This document shows, piece by piece, positions 1 to 21,256 of a stretch of DNA of 21,256 nt. The stretch is taken from positions 1-21,256 of IMG/VR virus record IMGVR_UViG_3300048571_000232; one strand, written 5' to 3'. Every line of letters starts with the position of its first letter. Within the stretch, counting starts at the first letter, position 1. A program made the translations under genes and the position numbers. The stretch is from a virus. The notes under the pieces are model-generated. The model saw nothing but the letters and a program-made list of their open reading frames with translations, did no database searches and had not been told where the DNA came from.

Positions 1-594
1 AAGATCATCTTGAAACTGAAGGAGTACACCGGACCTTCTGCCGGGGGCAACACTCCCGACCAGGCGTCCACCTTCAAGATTCCGATGAAGACGATCATTA
101 CCGCCCAGCGGAACCTGTATTCCACAGGCGATGCTCGGGCGTTCCATGACTCGATCGGCAGTATGACGCTGCTCCGCGACTTCCGCCGATGGGAAGATCG
201 GGTTTACATCCAAAAGCTCCTGGAAACCCCCAATGTCTACAATCCGGATGATGTGGCAGATGGCGGCATCTACCCGCTTGGGCCTCAGCAGTTCGCCGTC
301 AAGCGTGACTTGTTGACGGTTGTTGAGCGCCTGCAAACGGCTAACGCTCCCGTGTTTGAAGATGGCAACTATGCCTGCCTGTGTTCTCCACGTTTTCTGA
401 AGCACCTGCGTCAAGACCCTGATTTCCGTCAGGTCGCGCAGTATCCTGGATACGCTCCAGTCCAGTCGATGATCCCAGGCGCTTACGGCGTCACTCCGGC
501 TCAGATCCCTTTCATGTCTCATCCGAATGCGATGATCATGGGCGGCTCTCAAATGGGTCAGGCGATGTCGGTGAACGGAGCAATGGTGATGCCT
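1..594 (+). CDS. Major capsid protein, N4-gp56-like, exon 1 (5' partial)
   Basis: First exon of the capsid shell protein. The frame is open from base 1, so the true start lies upstream of the window; the TTG at 10 is not a credible start. The 198 visible codons include an EYTGP segment near the start, a YPLGPQQFAVKRD region, and NYACLCSPRFLKHLRQDPDF followed by a YPGYAP turn, which resembles the 'structural hP..l.dLr.d..f' block of N4-gp56-type capsid proteins. The frame meets a stop at 637-639, but the coding sequence is interpreted as ending at T594 because a group I intron begins there. Joining to exon 2 at 1741 keeps frame and gives ...NGAMVMP-ITQVTGIVFEGVRFF. The family call rests on my recognition of the pattern; the split-gene structure rests on the RNA elements seen in the intron. 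Confidence 0.82.
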
Positions 595-1740
595 AAAAAT
601 ACGATTAAAGCTTTCTGCCGCTTGGCAATCAAAGCTTAACCAGTGGGCATCTAAAACAGGGTGAATTGTCTGGAACGCCATCAACGACGGCTTAGCAAAC
701 CGATCGTGGCCAATCAGCAGCCAAGCCAGTCAGGAATGATTTGGAAGGTCCAACGACTAACACCCGAGTCCAGACCGGACAGTAATGGTGACACGAGCGC
801 CCTGGCACTGAACTATGAAAACCAAATAGCAGCCTGTTCTTTTTTCCTCGGAATTGAAACCTCGCAATCCTCGTAAAGCCAGCGAACAACTGGCCCCGCT
901 GAAGAGAGCGAGAGCCTGTAAAAAGTCTTCCCTGAAGGAAGTTTCCGGTGAGTTAAGTGAGCCGAAGGATTAGGGAGTTCCTCTCGAACCCATTCAGCAA
1001 CACTTTCGCATAGCGGCAAGGAACAAGACCCTAGGTAAAGGGATTTTGCTTTCCCGTCTACATGCCCATCCCCGTCAAACACCCCTCTGAGAAAATGCTT
1101 CCGAAGAGACTTTTTAAGATTGCTGGGCGCTGTATTGCGCTCGGTGTCATAAGTCATTCCATGAAGCTGAAGATCCGCAACGATCGCTCGACTGTAAACC
1201 CGAATTCTGCCAGAGTCCTTTTTGCCCTCTCTCTTGAGACGTTCTAAGGGTTTCGCTAAATTCAGCTCTTGAGTAAGCCGCTCAAGAACAACACAGTCTG
1301 GCTCCTGAAGCTCGATGGCGGTGAAGCACCCTTTCCCGGTGTTTTCTATATGTCCATCGGTAATCAGAAGTCCAAGAAAGTACGCTTGACATTCTGATGT
1401 TATTTCTTTGAAGTAATCAGAGTTCAAGTCCTTCAGGTGAGGCACCCCCTCTCCTGGCAGCAACACTTCTTGAGTTGTGCGGTTCGTTCGACAGGATGTC
1501 TTGGCGTATCTCGATTTGACGCCCAGCTTCTTTCTTAGCTGGTGGATCGTTGAGATTGCCACCCCTTGCTGATCGGCAATCTGCTGGTCGCTTAAACGAT
1601 CGGTGAGACTGTCTAAAGCTTCCCGAGAAAGATCGAATGGTTTACCTTGCATGGCTGCTACCTGGTTAAAGTTTAGTGCGTGATATAGTCTGACCTCGCT
1701 CGTGAGAAGAGCGAGAACTAGGAGATAAAGAGCTTCTAGG
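595..1740 (+). ncRNA. Group I self-splicing intron in the capsid gene
   Basis: All core elements are visible. P1 pairs exon GATGCCT (588-594) with GGGCATC (645-651), giving seven pairs and ending in the diagnostic U594-G645 wobble. L1 folds into its own hairpin (605-614/631-639, 616-619/624-627). P3 is 659-663/761-765. P4 is 666-672/718-724 with one mismatch. P5 is 677-680/707-710. P7 is GACTA (755-759)/TAGTC (1686-1690), inside the conserved R-like CCAACGACTAA and S-like GATATAGTC motifs. P8 is ten pairs, 805-814/1670-1679. P9 is 1695-1701/1709-1715, and a last stem is 1718-1724/1733-1739. G1740 follows directly as the terminal guanosine. The 1146-nt length is a multiple of three, and removal fuses the two capsid exons in frame. 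P10 is weak (A1741-U644, U1742-G643). Confidence 0.93.
813..1652 (-). CDS. LAGLIDADG homing endonuclease encoded antisense in the intron
   Basis: A 279-residue DNA endonuclease that would cut intronless alleles of the capsid gene and drive intron copying. It has two LAGLIDADG helices: AYFLGLLITDG (residues 90-100) and FLRGVFDGDGHV (187-198), each with its catalytic acidic residue. An N-terminal helix-turn-helix-like stretch (LSDQQIADQQGVAISTIHQL, about 20-39) is probably an accessory DNA-binding module. The frame is open further upstream to 1823, but ATG1652 is chosen because it follows an AGG-like ribosome site and keeps the gene inside the P8 loop rather than running over P7-P9 and exon 2. 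Its stop codon (815-813) lies in the 5' strand of P8. It is antisense to the capsid gene, so it needs its own promoter; I see no strong one. It appears intact. Confidence 0.88.
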   Translation of the reverse strand: MQGKPFDLSREALDSLTDRLSDQQIADQQGVAISTIHQLRKKLGVKSRYAKTSCRTNRTTQEVLLPGEGVPHLKDLNSDYFKEITSECQAYFLGLLITDGHIENTGKGCFTAIELQEPDCVVLERLTQELNLAKPLERLKREGKKDSGRIRVYSRAIVADLQLHGMTYDTERNTAPSNLKKSLRKHFLRGVFDGDGHVDGKAKSLYLGSCSLPLCESVAEWVREELPNPSAHLTHRKLPSGKTFYRLSLSSAGPVVRWLYEDCEVSIPRKKEQAAIWFS

Positions 1741-2073
1741 ATAACACAAGTGACAGGCATCGTGTTTGAAGGAGTCCGCTTCTTCGTTACAAACAACCTC
1801 CCTAAACAACGGGTGAACCTCACCTACACCGCACTCGCGGCAGGTGCTAACGCGGCCAGAAACCCGATCGGTCCCGGCATCCGTGAAGCGGACCTGGGCA
1901 TCTTCTTCGGCCCTCAAGCGGTGGGCGTCGGCGTCTGCGGCATGGGTCCAGAAGTGTTGCTCAACAACAACGACGACTTCTCGCGGTTCATCATTGCAAT
2001 CTGGCGCATGTATGGCGCTTTTGGATTGCTCAATGAAAATTTCGTGCAAGTCGCACGAACCTACGGAGAGTAA
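1741..2073 (+). CDS. Major capsid protein, exon 2 (C-terminal part)
   Basis: Encodes the last 110 residues of the capsid protein. It opens with ITQVTGIVFEGVRFFVTNNLP, matching the conserved 'G.i.Gvrf..tn' strand of N4-gp56-type capsid proteins, and continues with IFFGPQAVGVGVCGMGPEV, the family's late 'fG..A....' element. It ends RMYGAFGLLNENFVQVART. A GTG at 1750 with the same frame exists, but no ribosome site precedes it and the product would be only a capsid fragment. Together with exon 1 this gives at least 308 residues, normal for this family. The stop at 2071-2073 is followed six bases later by the next structural gene. Confidence 0.85.
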   Translation: MTQVTGIVFEGVRFFVTNNLPKQRVNLTYTALAAGANAARNPIGPGIREADLGIFFGPQAVGVGVCGMGPEVLLNNNDDFSRFIIAIWRMYGAFGLLNENFVQVARTYGE

Positions 2074-2751: not shown

Positions 2752-3411
2752 ATGACGATCGCCAGTGGCAACGTAATCAACCGGGAGAACCTGCTGGGGG
2801 TGGACTACCCCTTCGGTGTTTGGTTCTCCCGGCCAGTCGGGTACATTCATATCGACCCAGAGGATGACTTGCTGACAACAAGCTTCTGGGTTTACGAAGA
2901 AGCCCAAGCGCCCCCGGTAAAAGAGAAGTCCCGGCTCAAGGTGAAGCTCCCCAAAGGGCTTTACCTATACTTGTTTGGAGTGGCGGTGCCTCGGGGCGTC
3001 GCACCGCTCTCGACCAATATATTTAGCGCTAATACGGCTCCAATTATCTATACGCCTGACCCGCTGACGGGCGATCTGAAGGAAACGGGGATTGGCCCAT
3101 TGGTACCATTCTCGACGCCGATTCCAATCGCCCCCATGCTGCTCAAGATCTACGATCCACTTTTCCCATTGAATGAGCTATCCGAATCCAAAAACGCCTA
3201 CCCGCTTCCTGGCTTTGACGCAGGGGCGGCGGTGCCGTTGGTGGAGAATAGCTATCTCAAAATCAATACGGGAACACCGATCGTCCTCAGCCCCGAGGCG
3301 CTCAAGGCCAAGAAACCGCTTCGGATTGCGATCGTTGTCGCAGGCTGGAAGAAGGATGTCCTAAGCGTTTCGGTTGGCGATATCGGGGGGTGGTCAACCA
3401 ATGACTACTAG
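2752..3411 (+). CDS. Virion structural protein, paralogue of the preceding gene
   Basis: A 219-residue protein whose ATG abuts the preceding stop (TAGATG) and has GGAGG five bases upstream, so the two are translated from one message. It starts MTIASGNVINRENLLG, which lines up with MQTATGNLINDARWG of the giant protein at 7266. A GYIHIDPEDD strand follows, and near the C-terminus KPLRIAIVVAGWKKDV lines up with the RDQILRVIVELYTCG region of the previous gene. No known family was recognised beyond this shared domain. It is probably another capsid-associated subunit. Its last bases overlap the start of the next gene. Confidence 0.72.
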   Translation: MTIASGNVINRENLLGVDYPFGVWFSRPVGYIHIDPEDDLLTTSFWVYEEAQAPPVKEKSRLKVKLPKGLYLYLFGVAVPRGVAPLSTNIFSANTAPIIYTPDPLTGDLKETGIGPLVPFSTPIPIAPMLLKIYDPLFPLNELSESKNAYPLPGFDAGAAVPLVENSYLKINTGTPIVLSPEALKAKKPLRIAIVVAGWKKDVLSVSVGDIGGWSTNDY

Positions 3412-4030
3412 CACCCATCGACATCCAAAATGGGGCGAGGGACAAATCATCGGTTGGTTCGATCAGGACATGGTGATGTTCAAATCGAACCACGGCAAGA
3501 CGATGTTACGGGAGGCGACCTTAACGCCTCTTGAGCAAAGCCAGCCAATGCCGATCGCCACTCCTCAAACCTTAGCGACTGAGCCTCCCGAGCTACAGCC
3601 GCCCCAGACCTTCACCCCGGCACCTGCTCAAGAGGCGACTCCTGAATTCGTGCCGACTGAGGCGACTCCTGAATTCGTGCCGACTGAGGCGACTCCTGAA
3701 TTCGTGCCGACTGAGGCGACTCCTGAATTCGTGCCGACTGAGGCGGTACTGGCCGGACTTGCTCAAGAGGCAACTAAAAACCCTCGCCAGCGCAAGAAGC
3801 AGCCAGCACCGAAACCTGCTTCGACAAAGCTGGACCTAAACAAGGTCAAGGTCTCTACCGAGATCTCAGACGTTTTCCCCAGGCTGGGGAAAATCGGGGC
3901 CAAGAAGTTGTTTGACAAAACCCCCTCTGCGGGATGGGTTTCGTTAAACTCTGTTCGGGACTTCTGCGGGGACTTGTTCCCAACACAGGAATCTTGGGAC
4001 GCGTTTACTCAACTGTTTGAGGTGAACTGA
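3401..4030 (+). CDS. Phage protein with four tandem EATPEFVPT repeats
   Basis: A 209-residue protein. ATG3401 is chosen over an upstream in-frame ATG at 3374 because it overlaps the previous stop (ATGACTACTAG) and has a G-rich ribosome site (GGGGGGTGG) at proper distance. Residues about 1-45 form a compact start containing HPKWGEGQIIGWFDQDMVM, resembling small beta-barrel modules that bind partners. A long Pro/Ala/Thr/Glu-rich linker follows, with four perfect nine-residue repeats, then a Lys-rich patch (KNPRQRKKQPAPKP). The C-terminal domain is about 65 residues (LGKIGAKKLFDKTP...). The layout of two small domains joined by a flexible linker suggests a scaffold or connector protein; the function is unknown. 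Confidence 0.7.
   Translation: MTTSTHRHPKWGEGQIIGWFDQDMVMFKSNHGKTMLREATLTPLEQSQPMPIATPQTLATEPPELQPPQTFTPAPAQEATPEFVPTEATPEFVPTEATPEFVPTEATPEFVPTEAVLAGLAQEATKNPRQRKKQPAPKPASTKLDLNKVKVSTEISDVFPRLGKIGAKKLFDKTPSAGWVSLNSVRDFCGDLFPTQESWDAFTQLFEVN
3632..3739 (+). repeat. Perfect 4 x 27-bp in-frame tandem repeat
   Basis: Four identical 27-bp units start at 3632, 3659, 3686 and 3713, each encoding EATPEFVPT, with a six-base partial fifth copy (to 3745). No base differs among the four copies, which points to recent expansion by slippage or unequal recombination. Copy number probably varies between relatives and would only change linker length in nine-residue steps. Confidence 0.97.
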
Positions 4031-5351: not shown

Positions 5352-5487
5352 GACCGAAAAGCGGGGCGCAAGCCCCTAGCTTCAGATATGGGGTCTAGCC
5401 TGTAGCGGCTTCAGCCGCCTAGAAGTATTTACAAAGACTTTGTATAACGTTTGCGAAATATCTAGCTGAGTGCTGTATAACTATAGT

Positions 5488-5886
5488 ATGAAGCCAAAAT
5501 ACAAGCACAACAACAACATCACCTACTCTTGTAAATATCATGTCGTCTGGTGCCCCAAGTATCGCCGTAAGGTCTTGATTGAAGGCGTAGACATTCGACT
5601 TAAGGAAATCCTTTTAGAAGTTGCTACAGAGTTCAACAGCGAGTTAATTGAAATGGAGGTAATGCCAGACCACGTACATATTCTGGTTGAGTGCGATCCT
5701 CAGTTCGGGATTGCCAAGCTGGTCAGGCATATGAAAGGTCGGTCATCCCGTTTTTTGCGTCAAGAATTTCCTTGGCTGAAAGGGCGGCTACCGACACTCT
5801 GGACTAACAGCTATTTCGTTTCAACTGTCGGCGGTGCGCCTATCTCAGTGATTAAGCAATATATTGAGAATCAAAAAAATGTCTAG
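5488..5886 (+). CDS. tnpA: IS200/IS605 transposase TnpA (Y1 HUH)
   Basis: A 132-residue single-strand transposase that nicks and rejoins hairpin ends through a 5'-phosphotyrosine. It has the HUH metal motif in MPDHVHILV (H62, H64) and the catalytic tyrosine in VIKQYIENQ (Y125). It also has the family's early YHVVWCPKYRRKVL strand and LWTNSYFVSTVGG block. Start ATG5488 is chosen because it opens the conserved sequence (MKPKYKHNNNITYSCKYHVVW); the upstream TTG at 5470 adds nothing family-like. Full length for the family and apparently active. Its end overlaps the tnpB start by eight bases, implying coupled translation. Confidence 0.95.
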   Translation: MKPKYKHNNNITYSCKYHVVWCPKYRRKVLIEGVDIRLKEILLEVATEFNSELIEMEVMPDHVHILVECDPQFGIAKLVRHMKGRSSRFLRQEFPWLKGRLPTLWTNSYFVSTVGGAPISVIKQYIENQKNV

Positions 5887-7150
5887 CTATGGTTGCCAAC
5901 AAATTTTAATCAGTCCAAACAAGGAACTTAGAGCCGTTCTAGAGTTTGTTTGTGAGGAATCTAACAAGCTTGCCAACTGTGGGATCTACTACTCCAGACA
6001 GCTATATTTTAAGACTGGCAAGATTCCCGGCAAGTTTGATCTACATCGCCTGATGAAGTCAAATATCCATTTTCAAGCTTTGTATTCGCACGTTGCCCAG
6101 CAAACTTTAACCAGTGTTGCAGAGTCGTTTAAGTCCTATATTGGGCTGTTAAAAGGCATCAAAAAAGGGACTGTAACGCAACGCCCTAAACTTCCTGGAT
6201 ACCGAAAAAACAGCTTGAAGCTTGCCACTTTCCCACGGGCTGATGTCAAGTTAAAACCTGAAGGCTTGCGTTTTCCATTGGGTAGCAAGGTTAAAGCGTG
6301 GTTTGGAATTGATTGTTTCTATCTACCTATGCCTTCAAATCTTGAGTACACCAGCGTCAATGAAATTCGCATTCTCCCTAGGAATGGTCAGTTCTACGCT
6401 GAGTTTGTCTACAAGGTAGAGGCGATTCAATCTGATGTTGATTCTAGCAGGGCGCTGGGCATCGATCCCGGCTTAAACAATTGGCTAACCTGTATCTCGA
6501 ATGTTGGCACGTCTCTAATTGTGGATGGGTTGCATCTCAAATCGTTGAATCAGTGGTACAACAAGCGCGTCTCAACGCTGAAAGAGAATCAAGCTCAGGG
6601 ATTCTGGTCTAAGCAGTTAGCGGGTATCACGGAGAAACGAAACAGACAGGTTAGAGACGCTGTGAACAAAGCAGCTAGATTAGTTTTGAACCACTGCCTA
6701 GAAAACAGAATTGGTACAGTTGTTTTTGGTTGGAACAAAGGACAGCGGCAAAACATCAATCTAGGCAGCAAAACCAATCAAAAGTTCGTACAGATTCCCA
6801 CTGCCAGGCTAAAAAATAGACTCGCACAATTGTGTGAACAGTATGGGATTCAGTTTGTTGAGACTGAGGAAAGCTATACCTCTAAGGCAAGTTTTCTAGA
6901 TTCGGATAGCCTACCTACGTTCGGTGCAAAACCTGAAGGGTGGAAAGAATCTGGAAAGCGAGTCAAGCGTGGTTTGTATCGGTCGGCTGATGGCTTCAGA
7001 ATTAATGCAGACTGCAACGGCGCTGCAAACATTCTGAGAAAAGTAGCGGCGAAATTGAGTATCAATCTCGATGGAGTCAGTAGGGGCGCTTTGATTGCGC
7101 CTTTGAGAATTAAGCTTTGGCAGAGTTCTCAAGAATCCCCGTCCCTTTAG
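5879..7150 (+). CDS. tnpB: TnpB RNA-guided nuclease-like protein, variant catalytic site
   Basis: A 423-residue TnpB, in other elements an RNA-guided DNA nuclease that cuts the empty donor site. ATG5879 lies within the tnpA end; an in-frame ATG at 5864 is possible but adds five residues with no support. RuvC-I is LGIDPGLNNWL (D196) and RuvC-III is NADCNGAANI (D378). The position of RuvC-II reads VVFGWNKGQ (281-289) and has no glutamate; acidic residues instead occur in FVETEESYTSKAS (E328, E330, E331). No CxxC zinc ribbon is present between the YTSKAS segment and RuvC-III. The same pattern is seen in the second TnpB here, so it is a lineage trait rather than decay. TnpB lineages with relocated RuvC glutamates have been described. 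Confidence 0.93.
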   Translation: MSSYGCQQILISPNKELRAVLEFVCEESNKLANCGIYYSRQLYFKTGKIPGKFDLHRLMKSNIHFQALYSHVAQQTLTSVAESFKSYIGLLKGIKKGTVTQRPKLPGYRKNSLKLATFPRADVKLKPEGLRFPLGSKVKAWFGIDCFYLPMPSNLEYTSVNEIRILPRNGQFYAEFVYKVEAIQSDVDSSRALGIDPGLNNWLTCISNVGTSLIVDGLHLKSLNQWYNKRVSTLKENQAQGFWSKQLAGITEKRNRQVRDAVNKAARLVLNHCLENRIGTVVFGWNKGQRQNINLGSKTNQKFVQIPTARLKNRLAQLCEQYGIQFVETEESYTSKASFLDSDSLPTFGAKPEGWKESGKRVKRGLYRSADGFRINADCNGAANILRKVAAKLSINLDGVSRGALIAPLRIKLWQSSQESPSL

Positions 7151-7265: not shown

Positions 7266-10200
7266 ATGCAAACAGCCACCGGAAACTTAATCAACGACGC
7301 CCGTTGGGGAGCCGAAACAGTCCCAGGACTCGAAGCTCGTCGATGGACTGGATATATCGATGTCAAAAGCACGGACGCCGTTGGGAAGTGGTATGCCGTC
7401 AGCTTGCCAAACACCGGACGACGGGACGAGTTATTGGAACCCGATCGCGTGGCGGTCCTGCCCACAGACTTCAAAATCAATCACTTCGCCATCCAGCCCT
7501 ACGACATCAAGTTTGCCGGAACTGCCGCTCAGCTATCCCTTCGCAACCCTGGGTTTATTGATAACGAAAAGACGATTCAGTTTGTAAATCAAGGGGCTTA
7601 TCTGAATGAGTTGTTTTTGCGGACCACATTAAACCCGTCTCTGCTGCCCAGCCCCCCGTACTTGGCCCATCAGATGTGGATCAAATTAGTCAATGCCCCC
7701 AAGATGGATGAGCGCTTGGTGATCTCGATCGGAGCTATTCGGAAAGCTGAGGTGTTTGACTGGTTCCGCCCGGAACGCGAAGAGACAGGGGCACTCATTT
7801 GGGGAGAACGACGCAATGGCACGATCGGTATTATTCCAGGATCTGAAGGGTTCGGCGACGACGGCATTCGTCCAGGTGGCCGTGACTTTCCGGCTGAGGA
7901 CTTCTTCTCCGTCAGCCCCGGCACCGCAGACCTTACCCCTGGTCAAACTATTACCTTCTACGCCAGCGGCCCCGCAACTTGGACGCTAGTTGGAGGCGGA
8001 ACTCTTTCCAGTACGACCGGAAACACTGTTATCTATACCGCCCCGGCAGGCGTCGGCACCGCGACCATTACCGCTATTAGCACCGACGACCCTACCAGCT
8101 CGGTGCAGGTCCCTGTTACGATCGCAGTCCCTACCGTCAGCGCGGTTGATTTGACCAGCGACCAGTCCGCCCTGCTTGTTGGCGGCAGCGCAAACTTGAA
8201 CGCCACCGTCACAGGCACGGGCGCGTTCAACCCTAATGTCACCTTCACCTTCACCGGACCTGCGACCCTTTCCGGTAGCGGCAACAGTCGCACTTTGGTA
8301 GCTACTGGTCCCGGCACCATCACCGTCACCGCAACCTCAACGGGCGATCCTAGTAAGTCTAAGACGATTACGATCGCCAGCACGGTTCCGATTCCGGTTG
8401 TGACGGCGATTACTTTGTCGTCTGACAAGTACACGATGGATACGCTGCAAACCGCCAACTTGCTAGCCAGCGTAATCGCGACCAACGGCGGCAGCACAGC
8501 CGTCGCGTTTAGCATTACAGGTCCGGGCACATTGTCGGGCACAGGGAACGGTCGAACCCTGACCCCAACCGGGCCTGGGACGATTAGCGTAACGGCAACG
8601 TCGGTACAAGATTCAACAAAAACGGCAACAATCTCGATCGCTGTTGGAGTTGGCATCAGTGTCACGACGATTACACTAACGGGAACGCCTCAAGCGAACT
8701 CACCGCTTGGTACAACGAACTTGATGGCAACAGTCAACGGAACGGGCGCTTACAACGCTGCTGTTACCTGGTCGATTATTGGCGCAGGTCCAGGAACGTT
8801 GACCCCAGGAGCTTTCAGTTCCCCGACGACAGCCGGAACTTTGACTTTTGGCGCAACCCCCACGACCGGAACAACGACCGTTCGTGCCACGTCCGTCGCC
8901 GACCCCAGCAAGTTTGCTGACTTTGTGGTGACGCTGGGAGTAGACGCACTTATCACCAGCATTGTCGTCACCCCGAGCGCTACCACAGTCGCGCCTGGGG
9001 GAACTTTCACCGCGACGGCCTTGATTAATCCTTCGACCCGATCGCAGGCTGTCACCTGGTCCGTCGCAGGGCCTGCGACGCTATCGGTCGCAGCAGGCGT
9101 CCCGACCGTTACCACAACAGGCCCAGGTGTTGTCACAATTACGGCTACTTCGGTCGCGAATCCTGGCGTTTCAGGTTCGGCGATCGTTAATTCGGTCGTC
9201 ACTCCGATCGTTACCTCGGTGCTGGCATTCCGAGCGACTTCAGGCGGAGCGTTGGATGCCGCGCCCGCTCCAGTGCCGGGGGGGACTTCAACCTTTGTCA
9301 GCGCGACAGTCTATGGAGCGGGGGCTATCAGTCCACTAGTTACTTGGTCGATCGTCTCGGGTGGCGGAACGCTAACTCCGCAGTCGCCAAACATCGCTCA
9401 ATATACGGCTCCCGCTATTACGACGGTTGGACAGTCGGCGGTCCTTCGAGCGACATCGGTTCAAGATCCGACAAAATTTGGGGATGTGGTGATTGGGTTT
9501 GACACGACGGTTGCCGTGACTTCAGTTGTCTGGTCGCCGGATGGCCCGATCGCCTCGACCTATCTCGACGAAGATCTAGCCCCTTTCACCGCCAGCGTCA
9601 ACGTCCTGGGTACAGGAGCATACAGTAGCTCTGTAACATTCACCAGCCCTCCAGGTGTAACCGTGACACCCGGAACGAGGGTTGGCACGGTTACACCTGT
9701 TGTAATTTCGTTTGCTTCGACCCTGCCAAAAACCCCTCAGAGTTATACAGTCCGAGCAGTATCCGTTCAAGATGCGTCTAAATTTGACGATTTGAGTATC
9801 AATCGGACTTATCAACTATCTCCTATAACCCTCTCAACCCAGTACATTCAGCCCAGTGAGCTTGGGGGAAGCGTCTATCCTCCTAGTTCCAATCCTGCGG
9901 CTCCTATCCCCCCGGTGATACAGGTCGGATCCCCCTGGGGGATCGAGTCGGTTATTAGTAGCGCCACAAATTCCGGCTTCAATCGAGCCGTAACCTGGTC
10001 CGTTACAGGTCCAGCAACCTTTACAGTGCTTCCGTCTCCTATAGCTGGAACCTCGGAACTCCGACTAGTCCCGTCAGGGCCTGGGACGATTTCCGTTACC
10101 GTGACTTCTGTTTACGATCCATCTGTCAGTTCAACCAAGACGCTGACAGTTCTTGCAACCCCTGTTGTAACGAGTGTTCAGGTTTTTCGGCCAGATGGTC

Positions 10201-11339
10201 AAGTAGTTACAGCAAATGTCTACAGAGGGACTGCTGCGCTCCCTGATAAGAACTTGGTTGTGTTCACGGGGCAGGCCGTAGGAGTTAATGTCTCTGGCCC
10301 ATTTGCGACTGATTCGGTTAACTGGACGATCGTAAGCGGCCCAGGAGCGCTGGTCGGAGCGTCGATTATTGACAGCCCGTTCCCAGGGATAGGCGGCTCC
10401 AGCGCGTACTCAGTTGGCTACATTGGCCCCGTAGGGTTCCCTTTGACTGCCGTTCCCGTAACGCTTCGAGCCACTTCTTTTGAGGATCCGTCGAAATTTA
10501 CCGATGTGACGTTCAATCTCCTTGGCGACCCCTCAGGAAGCGTGGTGACAGGTATTTCTGTTCTGCCAAATTACCCGGCCTCACAGGTTCCCGCGACTAC
10601 TCCAGCAAGCGTTGACACAAACTACTGGATGCCCGGAACGGCTTCTCAGCGGACAAACGTTCGACGATCTACGGTCATCAAAACCTCGACAGCAGGAAGC
10701 GGGCTTGGGTACGCTCTGGGGTCAACGCTTTCAGTTGTCAGCGGAGCGTCAATCGCATCTCTGACTGCGATTCCAGTTGGAGGGAGCCAAACCGACAAGT
10801 ACTATAACTTGATCCGGAACGGGAACCAGTCAGGTTGGGTAGTTGTCCGCGCCACGTCTGTTCACGATCCTTCCAAGTTCAAAGAATCCGGCTACTATTT
10901 CCGCCCTCAAGTGTTTTCGATTATGGCGCTGACTCAATTCGCTGGCCCAATCCTTAATCCTGTGAGTCCGTTTGATAAAGCAAACGTCTTACGAATTTAC
11001 AACGGCGGAGCATTAACCGAACCCGTAACAATTACTTCGGTAAACTGTACGGTTGCCCCCTCGATTGAGCCACAGTTTGGCCCCTTTGCCGAGCCGGACG
11101 TAAATGGGCGGGCGATAGCTACTAACGTTTTCCCGAATCCAGTAGGCCCTTACTCAATCACTGTTTTCCCAACTTCAAACCCCGCTCTCTCTCAGACGGT
11201 GACGTTCACGGTTGTCGATGGGTTCATCGTCGGCAACACTCTTGAGCCACCCGAAGGATTTGATCCTCCATACACTCCCCCAAATTACTCAATCAGCCCA
11301 GCGCAGCCGCCTAGGCCGGCCTTGACTAGTAGTATTTAA
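7266..11339 (+). CDS. Giant virion fibre/decoration protein with Ig-like repeats
   Basis: A 1357-residue protein. The start is supported by alignment of MQTATGNLINDARWG with MTIASGNVINRENLL of the small structural protein at 2752, although no good ribosome site is seen. Residues 1-210 form the shared virion domain (GYIDVKSTDA; LEPDRVAVLPTDF). From about 213 to 1325 lie roughly eleven Ig-like, bacterial-Ig (BIG-type) modules: each has a T/V-rich sandwich with 'VTWSI.GPGTL' and closes with a hallmark such as VRATSVADPSKF. These hallmarks begin near residues 268, 354, 442, 539, 625, 727, 829, 944, 1067, 1194 and 1299. The tail is Pro-rich (PPEGFDPPYTPPN). No signal peptide. The N-terminal domain probably anchors it to the virion and the Ig stalk reaches outwards for host or surface binding; that role is inferred. 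Confidence 0.8.
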   Translation: MQTATGNLINDARWGAETVPGLEARRWTGYIDVKSTDAVGKWYAVSLPNTGRRDELLEPDRVAVLPTDFKINHFAIQPYDIKFAGTAAQLSLRNPGFIDNEKTIQFVNQGAYLNELFLRTTLNPSLLPSPPYLAHQMWIKLVNAPKMDERLVISIGAIRKAEVFDWFRPEREETGALIWGERRNGTIGIIPGSEGFGDDGIRPGGRDFPAEDFFSVSPGTADLTPGQTITFYASGPATWTLVGGGTLSSTTGNTVIYTAPAGVGTATITAISTDDPTSSVQVPVTIAVPTVSAVDLTSDQSALLVGGSANLNATVTGTGAFNPNVTFTFTGPATLSGSGNSRTLVATGPGTITVTATSTGDPSKSKTITIASTVPIPVVTAITLSSDKYTMDTLQTANLLASVIATNGGSTAVAFSITGPGTLSGTGNGRTLTPTGPGTISVTATSVQDSTKTATISIAVGVGISVTTITLTGTPQANSPLGTTNLMATVNGTGAYNAAVTWSIIGAGPGTLTPGAFSSPTTAGTLTFGATPTTGTTTVRATSVADPSKFADFVVTLGVDALITSIVVTPSATTVAPGGTFTATALINPSTRSQAVTWSVAGPATLSVAAGVPTVTTTGPGVVTITATSVANPGVSGSAIVNSVVTPIVTSVLAFRATSGGALDAAPAPVPGGTSTFVSATVYGAGAISPLVTWSIVSGGGTLTPQSPNIAQYTAPAITTVGQSAVLRATSVQDPTKFGDVVIGFDTTVAVTSVVWSPDGPIASTYLDEDLAPFTASVNVLGTGAYSSSVTFTSPPGVTVTPGTRVGTVTPVVISFASTLPKTPQSYTVRAVSVQDASKFDDLSINRTYQLSPITLSTQYIQPSELGGSVYPPSSNPAAPIPPVIQVGSPWGIESVISSATNSGFNRAVTWSVTGPATFTVLPSPIAGTSELRLVPSGPGTISVTVTSVYDPSVSSTKTLTVLATPVVTSVQVFRPDGQVVTANVYRGTAALPDKNLVVFTGQAVGVNVSGPFATDSVNWTIVSGPGALVGASIIDSPFPGIGGSSAYSVGYIGPVGFPLTAVPVTLRATSFEDPSKFTDVTFNLLGDPSGSVVTGISVLPNYPASQVPATTPASVDTNYWMPGTASQRTNVRRSTVIKTSTAGSGLGYALGSTLSVVSGASIASLTAIPVGGSQTDKYYNLIRNGNQSGWVVVRATSVHDPSKFKESGYYFRPQVFSIMALTQFAGPILNPVSPFDKANVLRIYNGGALTEPVTITSVNCTVAPSIEPQFGPFAEPDVNGRAIATNVFPNPVGPYSITVFPTSNPALSQTVTFTVVDGFIVGNTLEPPEGFDPPYTPPNYSISPAQPPRPALTSSI

Positions 11340-16979: not shown

Positions 16980-17088
16980 ATCTCTCTTGTGAAGGTGGTT
17001 AAGATTCTCAGCTCTAAAGAGACTGAGATTTTTGGTTAGACCAGATTTGGAATACCTTAGGCGTTCTTAAAGCACCTCTACTCACTCC
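16980..17088 (-). ncRNA. Putative omega (right-end guide) RNA of element 2
   Basis: Mirror case of the element 1 RNA: a conserved stretch at 17069-17088 (minus strand, within the end of tnpB) and a right-end hairpin at 17005-17030 that overlaps the tnpB stop. With the element ending near 16999, the guide would be about 16998-16980. Extents are estimates. Confidence 0.48.
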
Positions 17089-18297
17089 TCCAAGGTCAAG
17101 CCCTAAAGTTGTGGCTACTTTTCTAAGAATGTTTGCAGCACCATTACAGTCTGCATTTATCCGGTCAAAGTTGCTAGACCTGAATAATCCGCGTTTAATG
17201 CGCTTACCGCTACTCTTCCATCCTTCGGGTTTTTCACCGTAAACGGGAAGCGTATCGGCGTCCAAAAAGGAAGCCTTAGACGTGTAGGATTCTTCAGTCT
17301 CGACGAACTCAATCCCGCAAACTTCACACATTTGCTTAATCCGGTCTTTCAGGCGTGCGGTGGGGATTTGTACGAATTTCTGGTTCGTTTTTCTCCCCAT
17401 TTGCGCGCCGTCCTTCTGCCCTTTGTTCCACCCAAAAACCAAAGTGCCAATCTGATTTTCTAGGCAGAAGTCAACAACCAGTCGAGCCGCTTTATTCACG
17501 GCAAAGCGCATTTGTCGATTACGCTTCTCGGTTAGAGCTTCCAGCTTCTTAGACCAAAAGCCGTTTCCCTTCCCCTCCATGCGCTCAGACGTGGATTTGT
17601 TGTACCACTGGTTTAGAGACTTCAAATGCTTGCCGTCTACGATGAAAGACTTGCCAGTATTAGTGATGCCTGTCAACCAGTTATTCAATCCATGATCAAG
17701 CCCTAGCACCTTGGGAGAGTCTAGGACCACCTCTACTTTGTCTACGCCATAGACGTACTCAGCATAAAAGAACCCATTGCGGGGAATGATTCGGACTTGC
17801 CGGATGCTGGCAAAATCAAGGTTGCTAGGCATTGGAATGAAGAACTCAGAAAGCCCAAACCAAGCTTTACATAACTGACCTAGGGGCATTCTGATCTTGT
17901 CTCCAACCAGCTTAAAATCAGCGCCAAACGAGATTTTGTTCATCCCGCCTGACTTCCTGTAACCCGGAAACTTAGGCTTCTGGTTCAAGTCGCCTTTACG
18001 AGACTTGGAGGCAAGCTGCTTGTAGGACTCAATAGCTTCCCCGACTTGGTGGGTGACGGGCTGCGCTGCGCGATTAGGCATAGCCTGAAAGTGCTTATTG
18101 TCTTTTAGCCGGTTCTGGCAATCAATCTTTGTTAGTAGCTTCCCGCAGTCAAAAAACACTTTGCGGGCCTCAAACATCGTGCAGTTGTAGAGGTTGTTAG
18201 ACTCCCTGCACAGATATTCAAGTATTGCCAAATCTAGACCTACAGGGCTTAACAGATTTTGCTGTACTCCCATAAATTGAACTTTATCTTTCGCCAT
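17014..18297 (-). CDS. tnpB: TnpB RNA-guided nuclease-like protein, variant catalytic site
   Basis: A 427-residue TnpB, a close relative of the one at 5879: long stretches such as NADCNGAANILRKVA, QKFVQIPTARLK and FVETEESYTSKASFLD are identical or nearly so. RuvC-I is LGLDHGLNNWL (D201), RuvC-III D383. The RuvC-II position reads TLVFGWNKGQ without glutamate, and E333/E335/E336 lie in the ETEESYTSK segment. No CxxC zinc ribbon. The start is preceded by GGAGGG seven bases upstream. No frameshift or stop is seen, so it looks intact. Its 3' end overlaps the right-end hairpin, as expected when guide RNA and coding sequence share DNA. Confidence 0.93.
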   Translation of the reverse strand: MAKDKVQFMGVQQNLLSPVGLDLAILEYLCRESNNLYNCTMFEARKVFFDCGKLLTKIDCQNRLKDNKHFQAMPNRAAQPVTHQVGEAIESYKQLASKSRKGDLNQKPKFPGYRKSGGMNKISFGADFKLVGDKIRMPLGQLCKAWFGLSEFFIPMPSNLDFASIRQVRIIPRNGFFYAEYVYGVDKVEVVLDSPKVLGLDHGLNNWLTGITNTGKSFIVDGKHLKSLNQWYNKSTSERMEGKGNGFWSKKLEALTEKRNRQMRFAVNKAARLVVDFCLENQIGTLVFGWNKGQKDGAQMGRKTNQKFVQIPTARLKDRIKQMCEVCGIEFVETEESYTSKASFLDADTLPVYGEKPEGWKSSGKRIKRGLFRSSNFDRINADCNGAANILRKVATTLGLDLGGVSRGALRTPKVFQIWSNQKSQSL

Positions 18298-18324
18298 TTT
18301 GCCGCCCTCCGTCTAGTTGTTTGC

Positions 18325-18364
18325 TTGACCTCTCAATACTAGCAAGCTATACTGTAGATGTCAA
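18325..18364. promoter_or_regulatory. Overlapping face-to-face promoters for tnpA and tnpB
   Basis: Plus strand, for tnpA: TTGACC (18325-18330), 17-bp spacer, TATACT (18348-18353). Minus strand, for tnpB: TTGACA (18364-18359), 17-bp spacer, TAGTAT (18341-18336). Both are close to the sigma-70 consensus and occupy the same 40 bp, so one polymerase would exclude the other. Confidence 0.75.
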
Positions 18365-18386
18365 CCCATCCAGCAACTTTGTTTTT

Positions 18387-18794
18387 ATGCTACCGCTTCC
18401 AGAGTATCGGACTCAGAATCATGTCAAATTCTTGCTTAACTATCATTTTGTCTTTATCCCCAAGCGTAGACGCAAAGTTCTAGTTGGCGATGTAGCCACT
18501 AGATGTCGTCAGATATTCTTGGAACTCAGCATCGAGAAGGGGTGGGACATTCTAGCTATGACTGTAGAGCCGGATCATGTTCACCTTTTCGTGGCTGTCA
18601 AACCGACCGACACCCCAGCCTTGGTGATTAAGTCGTTTAAGGGGAGGTCTGCCAATATCCTTAGGAAAGAGTTCTCCCAACTTCTTAAGATGCCTAGCTT
18701 GTGGACTGGGAGCTACTTTGTAAGCACGGCAGGGAATATTAGCTCCGAAGCAGTGACAAAGTATATTAACGACCCGCACCACTCAGCAAACTAA
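18387..18794 (+). CDS. tnpA: IS200/IS605 transposase TnpA (Y1 HUH), divergent type
   Basis: A 135-residue single-strand transposase. It carries the HUH motif in EPDHVHLFV (H64, H66) and the catalytic tyrosine in AVTKYINDPHH (Y126). It also has YHFVFIPKRRRKVL and LWTGSYFVSTAGN blocks. ATG18387 is chosen because an upstream in-frame TTG at 18321 lies before the promoter. It differs much more from the element 1 TnpA than the two TnpBs differ from each other, and the usual IENQ after the tyrosine is INDP. Apparently complete. Confidence 0.93.
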   Translation: MLPLPEYRTQNHVKFLLNYHFVFIPKRRRKVLVGDVATRCRQIFLELSIEKGWDILAMTVEPDHVHLFVAVKPTDTPALVIKSFKGRSANILRKEFSQLLKMPSLWTGSYFVSTAGNISSEAVTKYINDPHHSAN

Positions 18795-20643: not shown

Positions 20644-21256
20644 TTATTCAAAGAATGTCGGCTGCAAAGTCTGCAAGCCTATTGCCTGAGCGACAGCAAT
20701 CACAGTTGGGTCGTCGTCAACTACAGCCACGATGTTATAGGATTCCAAAATCTCTTCAAGCATTGCCTTCTTGAAGACTGCTGCCTTGCTGTAATCTCCG
20801 TCAGGGCGCATGACGATCGATTCCGGATACAGGCTTTGGGAGGTCAGCCACTGCACCAACGACTCACGAGCGGCATCGTATCGGCCAGTCAAGATAATGA
20901 CTGGGTACCGCGACGATCGGACAATCTCTGGGCAGATCGGGTGATCGGCATCGCTAATCGCCGCGATAAAGTCATAGACCGATCGCTCGGGGTCTTTACG
21001 AGCCAAACAGCCGTCCACATCCACCACAATGCAGTCTCCTAGCTCGGGATTGCGGACTCGCATCGTCTTCGGCAAGTAGCGATGAGCAAACTGTCGAATC
21101 ACAGCTTCGCCGACGCCATTCTCTCGACGGTTATCGCGTTCAACGCATTCCTCAACAGTGATTGACAGGCAGTCTTGAATAACAATCACTTCCGCGCCAC
21201 GTTCAGCAGCAATCTCTTCGTAGATCTCACGCTTCTTGGGGTCCATTAACCCGGCA
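20644..21256 (-). CDS. Polynucleotide kinase/3'-phosphatase, T4 PseT-like (5' partial)
   Basis: End-healing enzyme: it phosphorylates 5'-OH ends and removes 3' phosphates, so cut nucleic acid can be religated. The C-terminal half is a HAD phosphatase: VVDVDGCLA (DxDG motif), ILTGRYDAARESLVQWL (motif with Thr-Gly-Arg), and MRPDGDYSKAAVFKKAML, then VVDDDPTVI, in the order found in T4 polynucleotide kinase. Before it lies the end of the kinase domain (MDPKKREIYEEIAAERGAEVIVI...TVEECVERDNRRENGVGEAVIRQ), normally found in the middle of that protein. The frame remains open to the window edge (AGL before the Met), so ATG21246 is internal and the nucleotide-binding P-loop lies outside. Confidence 0.88.
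   Translation of the reverse strand, partial: AGLMDPKKREIYEEIAAERGAEVIVIQDCLSITVEECVERDNRRENGVGEAVIRQFAHRYLPKTMRVRNPELGDCIVVDVDGCLARKDPERSVYDFIAAISDADHPICPEIVRSSRYPVIILTGRYDAARESLVQWLTSQSLYPESIVMRPDGDYSKAAVFKKAMLEEILESYNIVAVVDDDPTVIAVAQAIGLQTLQPTFFE

Follow-up and report, generated by a model that had tools for sequence, protein, structure and literature searches.

A probable mobile group I intron with an antisense LAGLIDADG endonuclease gene in the major capsid gene of an S-EIV1-like phage

The major capsid protein (MCP) gene of an uncultured, tailed phage distantly related to cyanophage S-EIV1 is interrupted by a group I intron in the window analyzed here, the 21,256-base IMG/VR virus record IMGVR_UViG_3300048571_000232. 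This intron, which carries a homing endonuclease gene (HEG) in its P8 loop on the strand opposite the ribozyme, is very probably a mobile element that spreads by homing; the fold, the empty sites, and the HEG were computed, and from them we infer splicing, cleavage, and homing. The interruption itself had been proposed in a sequence-only reading of the window, and fold, covariation, Rfam, homologous compact introns at the same site, and precise empty sites all agree with it. The HEG, which fills most of the intron, was absent from that reading. The host of the virus is probably a cyanobacterium. The interrupted gene has the following layout.

1-594, plus strand: MCP gene exon 1 (phrog_1357 major head protein, E 1.5e-7, profile positions 137-237); its 5' end lies beyond the contig
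595-1752, plus strand: group I intron of 1,158 nt, IA type with P7.1/P7.2 and resembling IA2 (RF00028, covariation, homologues, empty site)
813-1652, minus strand: LAGLIDADG_3 HEG, 279 aa, in the P8 loop (PF14528, E 8e-10; phrog_4645, E 8e-33)
1740-1752, plus strand: intron 3' end GATAACACAAGTG, omega G being G1752; conserved in nine of nine introns at MCP codon 282 (site 282)
1753-2073, plus strand: MCP gene exon 2 (phrog_1357, E 7.9e-5, profile positions 249-346)

Given that both pieces hit consecutive stretches of phrog_1357, the gene is the major capsid gene. The window begins within it, at a position corresponding to S-EIV1 MCP codon 81, and exon 1 is therefore partial; codon 283 of the S-EIV1 MCP falls at 1753 (tblastn). 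If unspliced, the frame of exon 1 ends at a stop at 637 to 639, and the second piece of the capsid gene forms a frame of its own. The MCP is 43% identical to that of Synechococcus phage S-EIV1, its sole phage relative in the annotated collection, and exon 2 is up to about 57% identical to IMG/VR contigs. The virus thus has an MCP homologous to that of S-EIV1-like phages, the MCP being the only protein compared. Scans of IMG/VR with single sequences returned no MCP relative for exon 1 and one HEG relative for the HEG, and in view of these near-empty results, S-EIV1 and exon 2 were taken as queries. The S-EIV1 MCP itself is an uninterrupted frame of 383 codons (60859-62010), and the capsid gene region of that genome (KJ410740.1:60784-62010, the same as L002:5686-6912) looks misannotated, since this frame is overlaid by a minus-strand hypothetical protein (AHV82227) and a truncated plus-strand one (AHV82228).

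The boundaries of the intron had been held to be resolvable from sequence alone, and this was true of the 5' site. The seven-pair P1 that had been described, GATGCCT (588-594) with GGGCATC (645-651) and a T594-G645 wobble, is found in the sequence. The 3' site had been placed 12 nt too early, with G1740 as the last intron base, while intronless homologues and an empty site in contig L120 place it after G1752. Removal of 595-1740 does join the exons in frame in the window, as had been claimed, but yields VMP-ITQV-TGIVFEG, with four extra residues. The junction 594/1753 yields VMP/TGIVFEG, which aligns gap-free to intronless relatives, so that the gap predicted at 594/1741 was observed at 594/1753. 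At the insertion site, the intronless S-EIV1 has VMPTGVQFEGVKFF, and more than 100 other related contigs read [VI]MPTG. Precise empty sites were found in the homologues L120 and L086. L120 and the intron-bearing L084 are 98.1% and 96.8% identical in the flanking exon stretches, and their alignment is interrupted exactly at L084 1956/3114, which corresponds to 594/1753; a one-base slide of this breakpoint is possible and is settled by the U-G and terminal-G rules.

An intron that ends at G1740, directly 3' of the P9.1 helix, with a mature protein that carries ITQV at the junction, is very improbable despite the open frame in the window. The four residues are absent from intronless homologues, and the equivalent junction brings in a stop codon in L084 and L217. 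In L165 the tail is 11 nt long, not 12, and would be out of frame, with a stop in addition, if read as exon. Moreover, the tail GGATAACA...TG is kept in all sister introns, and the L120 empty site lies 12 nt further on. The homologue reading, the conserved tail, and the empty site together therefore set the intron at 595-1752, with a terminal guanosine, as expected of group I.

The R-like and S-like motifs had been said to form P7, and helices P3, P4, P8, and P9 had been named as well; all of these were found, the helices with support from covariation. The elements of the ribozyme are as follows.

588-594, plus strand: P1 5' strand (exon), pairs with 645-651; U594-G645 wobble at the 5' splice site
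640-644, plus strand: CCAGU, a possible P10 strand for ACAGG of the 3' exon (1753-1757), 4 of 5 pairs; weak and not uniform among relatives
645-651, plus strand: P1 3' strand, the internal guide sequence
657-661, plus strand: P3 5' strand, pairs with 800-804; 3 of 5 pairs covary
667-672, plus strand: P4 5' strand with bulged U669, pairs with 715-719
677-680, plus strand: P5 5' strand, pairs with 707-710
726-744, plus strand: P6a hairpin (726-728/742-744)
750-760, plus strand: R element CCAACGACTAA, including the P7 5' strand (755-759)
761-790, plus strand: P7.1 (761-764/787-790) and P7.2 (768-771/777-780); 4 of 4 P7.1 pairs covary
800-804, plus strand: P3 3' strand (covariation)
805-814, plus strand: P8 5' strand, pairs with 1670-1679; HEG in the loop
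1670-1679, plus strand: P8 3' strand
1682-1690, plus strand: S element GATATAGTC, including the P7 3' strand (1686-1690)
1695-1715, plus strand: P9 hairpin (1695-1701/1709-1715); 6 of 7 pairs covary
1718-1739, plus strand: P9.1 hairpin (1718-1724/1733-1739); 5 of 7 pairs covary

The U-G pair that marks the 5' splice site of group I introns is thus present, and the exon end ATGCCT that contributes its U is invariant in nine introns. The P3-P4-P5-P6-P7-P8 core and the R and S elements are likewise in place, with covarying helices, as are P7.1 and P7.2 between P7 and P3, the mark of subgroup IA. Group IA2 phage introns (T4 td type, Twort orf142, Pf-WMP3) have R and S motifs, P7.1/P7.2, a U-G splice site, and an omega G. 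The window intron has the same features, a resemblance that suggests the label IA2. P10 was weighed as support for the 3' splice site and dropped, the pairing not being consistent across relatives.

Covariation was analyzed in nine site-282 introns, aligned with their HEG loops excised; P1, which MAFFT misaligned across relatives with differing P1/P2 extensions, was excluded from the count. Across the remaining 54 pairs, 95.9% of cells were paired, and 39 pairs had changed on both sides. None of 500 shuffles matched the observed percentage paired or the covariation score, and sliding the pairing partners by 1 to 3 columns abolished the signal. Because the structure was derived from the window and, by eye, from the relatives, both controls are somewhat biased toward it; even so, the count of double changes is far beyond both. 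For instance, P7 shows a compensatory double change in L152 (GACUA/UAGUC to GAUCA/UGAUC). Against the phage collection, blastn with the intron core found short core similarity only (crAss-like, Enterococcus, and Pseudomonas phages), which we read as a probably shared ribozyme core.

A search with the Rfam group I covariance models, suggested as a check in the sequence-only reading, did return RF00028 at 659-802 on the plus strand (33 bits; E 2.9e-6), but below the gathering score of 50. Rfam gave nothing in the window at gathering thresholds, nor did searching its full length by E-value reveal a second intron. The low score probably arises because the 840-nt endonuclease gene splits the core; several other HEG-bearing introns among the relatives likewise fall below the cutoff. 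At the same site, the HEG-less 259-nt intron of L149 reaches 70.5 bits over the full model, and the full-length matches comprise L149 and L260 above the cutoff and L247 and L228 just below it.

The bulged U669 in P4 is unique to the window, being absent from eight sister introns, and could weaken splicing. Together with the subthreshold RF00028 score, it could indicate a decayed intron whose ribozyme splices poorly, leaving the capsid gene broken in the window copy. We consider decay quite unlikely, given that all core helices are intact, the exons are conserved open frames, the endonuclease frame is unbroken, and the capsid protein is essential.

The other half of the mobile intron that we favor is its endonuclease gene, whose stop codon overlaps the top of the P8 stem. 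The frame is intact, and the product has two motifs (YFLGLLITDG and LRGVFDGDG) with the acidic residues present, preceded by predicted N-terminal HTH-like helices. An AlphaFold model (pLDDT, 86.6) and profile match I-DmoI and other homing endonucleases in the PDB, and on the motifs and the modeled fold, the product is a predicted LAGLIDADG homing endonuclease. The two motifs and the predicted fold are common to I-DmoI and other monomeric LAGLIDADG enzymes, although identity is about 16% over the fold alignment, and the HTH-like region is an addition of the window HEG.

Long open frames can arise opposite constrained sequence, and a promoter scan found no minus-strand site for the antisense gene, although cyanophage promoters may not fit the scan consensus. 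Nevertheless, the chance that this frame is a by-product of the sequence opposite the ribozyme rather than a gene is negligible. The matches to LAGLIDADG_3 and phrog_4645 are strong, and the frame sits in the P8 loop, outside the core, where HEG-less introns at the same site are without the whole block. Introns at MCP codons 31, about 42, about 140, and 282 carry homologous genes that are likewise antisense, and close pairs of these relatives have dN/dS values of 0.08 to 0.30, with changes mostly at third positions of the antisense frame; the relatives are under purifying selection.

In a tree of the endonucleases, those of sites 31 and 282 fall on opposite sides of one branch (support, 98/97), with three long branches uncertain. 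Given this split by insertion site, each HEG lineage keeps to its own site, as homing predicts. In L228, an endonuclease frame lies in a second insertion beside a compact site-282 intron, its place in the tree uncertain (long branch). A scan of bacterial genomes with the HEG alignment recovered three distant relatives only, and no bacterial source of the HEG was therefore identified. Separately, L182 (contig G019) has four group I intron matches with an antisense LAGLIDADG relative next to them, and no S-EIV1-like MCP insertion was seen there.

On tblastn evidence, the MCP gene of S-EIV1-like viruses is an intron hot spot with about 13 sites or more. In the S-EIV1-like contigs fetched, insertions, whose ends in this survey are approximate, lie at about codons 19, 31, 36, 48, 87, 90, 108, 132, 138-146, 214, 229-232, 238-245, and 282. 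The MCP genes of L149 (HEG-less), L152, and L247 each have four group I introns, and in that of L219 (3637-5845), RF00028 matches six times, each time above the gathering score, and there are probably seven exons; its first intron follows directly on the probable start MWID, a first exon identified from a short match. Sense-strand frames that look, by eye, like another LAGLIDADG kind are carried by introns at codons 36, 48, 90, and 108 and by one at 31. The best 80 S-EIV1 relatives all have an uninterrupted MCP. The contig scans were partly selected by intron pattern and limited to 80 loci and 600 candidates per scan, so intron frequencies are not readable from these counts. Turnover is also visible further into exon 2, where L120 (2194-2433) has a compact group I intron that is missing from L084, a case of intron turnover between 98%-identical phages.

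The steps of homing can be set out on this basis. P1 would form on the exon end GAUGCCU, with guanosine-dependent cleavage expected after U594, and exon 1 would be joined to exon 2 at 1753, restoring ...MVMP/TGIVFEGVRFF.... From the opposite strand, the P8-loop HEG would encode a monomeric LAGLIDADG enzyme, whose most likely target is the intronless capsid allele of a co-infecting phage, cut at the conserved codon 282/283 (putative empty target site, ...GTGATGCCT^ACAGGCATC...), and repair of the cut allele would copy the intron in. The support that was computed consists of the fold with covariation, the precise empty sites, the intact and conserved endonuclease, and the site-specific endonuclease lineages. 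Being antisense, the HEG would need a separate leftward transcript of its own, complementary to the P8 loop of the intron, so that its timing would be separable from that of the rightward late capsid transcript. Such separate transcription would let the nuclease precede the capsid mRNA, a timing that, since no promoter was found, we infer.

Alternatively, the main role of the enzyme might be to cut the capsid gene of co-infecting competitors and so disable them. The putative target is an essential and highly conserved capsid site, and the PhiPA3 intron endonuclease gp210, which harms a co-infecting competitor, is a documented case of interference competition (PMC11620839). This role is nevertheless compatible with homing rather than exclusive of it, and the presence or absence of the intron between 98%-identical contigs and the site-specific HEG lineages fit homing, so we consider it unlikely to be the main one. 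By analogy, spread by homing through a cut in a competitor's intronless capsid gene could also hurt that competitor.

The window intron is a known type of element, with a close precedent in the MCP intron of mycobacteriophage LittleE, an 819-bp intron shown by RT-PCR to be spliced in vivo and given as most likely group I (PMC3706429). Both interrupt the MCP gene, follow a 5' exon that ends in U, end in G, and have a bottom-strand LAGLIDADG-like frame. In contrast to LittleE, the window belongs to another phage lineage, its group I assignment is supported by covariation, and its intron and endonuclease are members of a family that occupies several sites in one gene. Cyanophage Pf-WMP3 is reported to have an HNH nicking enzyme in an intron of the DNA polymerase gene, a replication gene (PMC3428280), whereas the window combines LAGLIDADG, antisense orientation, and a capsid gene. 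Nuclear rDNA group I introns of Didymium also have the endonuclease gene opposite the ribozyme, where it needs its own transcript (PMC9548176), but with a His-Cys enzyme, in eukaryotic rDNA, and in P9 rather than P8.

Elsewhere on the contig, there are two IS200/IS605-type elements (5470-7150 and 17014-18794), each with a TnpA-like transposase and TnpB; the TnpB relatives sit in cyanobacterial plasmids, which hints at a cyanobacterial host. A 1,357-aa protein (7266-11339, plus strand) has a weak match to phrog_215 (structural protein with Ig domains) and repeated Ig-like stretches. The product of 3374-4030 (plus strand) contains about four copies of the tandem repeat ATPEFVPTE, and 20644-21255 (minus strand) encodes a HAD phosphatase domain of the polynucleotide kinase type (PF25109, E 8e-18).

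Capsid genes have huge expression and are common markers for virus counts; here, one is split by an intron that gene callers and the Rfam curated threshold miss. We found no report of S-EIV1-like capsid introns in the open-access literature searched, which is not proof of absence. The maximum there was three introns per phage gene (Twort orf142; Bastillevirinae DNA polymerase and terminase [PMC11878797]) versus the four to six group I introns per gene in S-EIV1-like MCP genes. In the Bastillevirinae set, introns colonized only nucleotide and DNA metabolism genes, and its authors ask why (PMC11878797); the S-EIV1-like case concerns a structural gene. Tentatively, and with odds that we place somewhat short of even, this hot spot of at least about 13 sites, with up to six introns (L219) and two endonuclease types, one of them always antisense and separately transcribed, may let the nuclease attack competing capsid alleles early, ahead of late capsid expression. 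The useful results are the correction of the 3' boundary, the endonuclease gene on the opposite strand, and the capsid genes with several introns; such genes make it possible to ask, in a natural system, how many self-splicing introns a late gene that is essential tolerates and why the HEGs are antisense.
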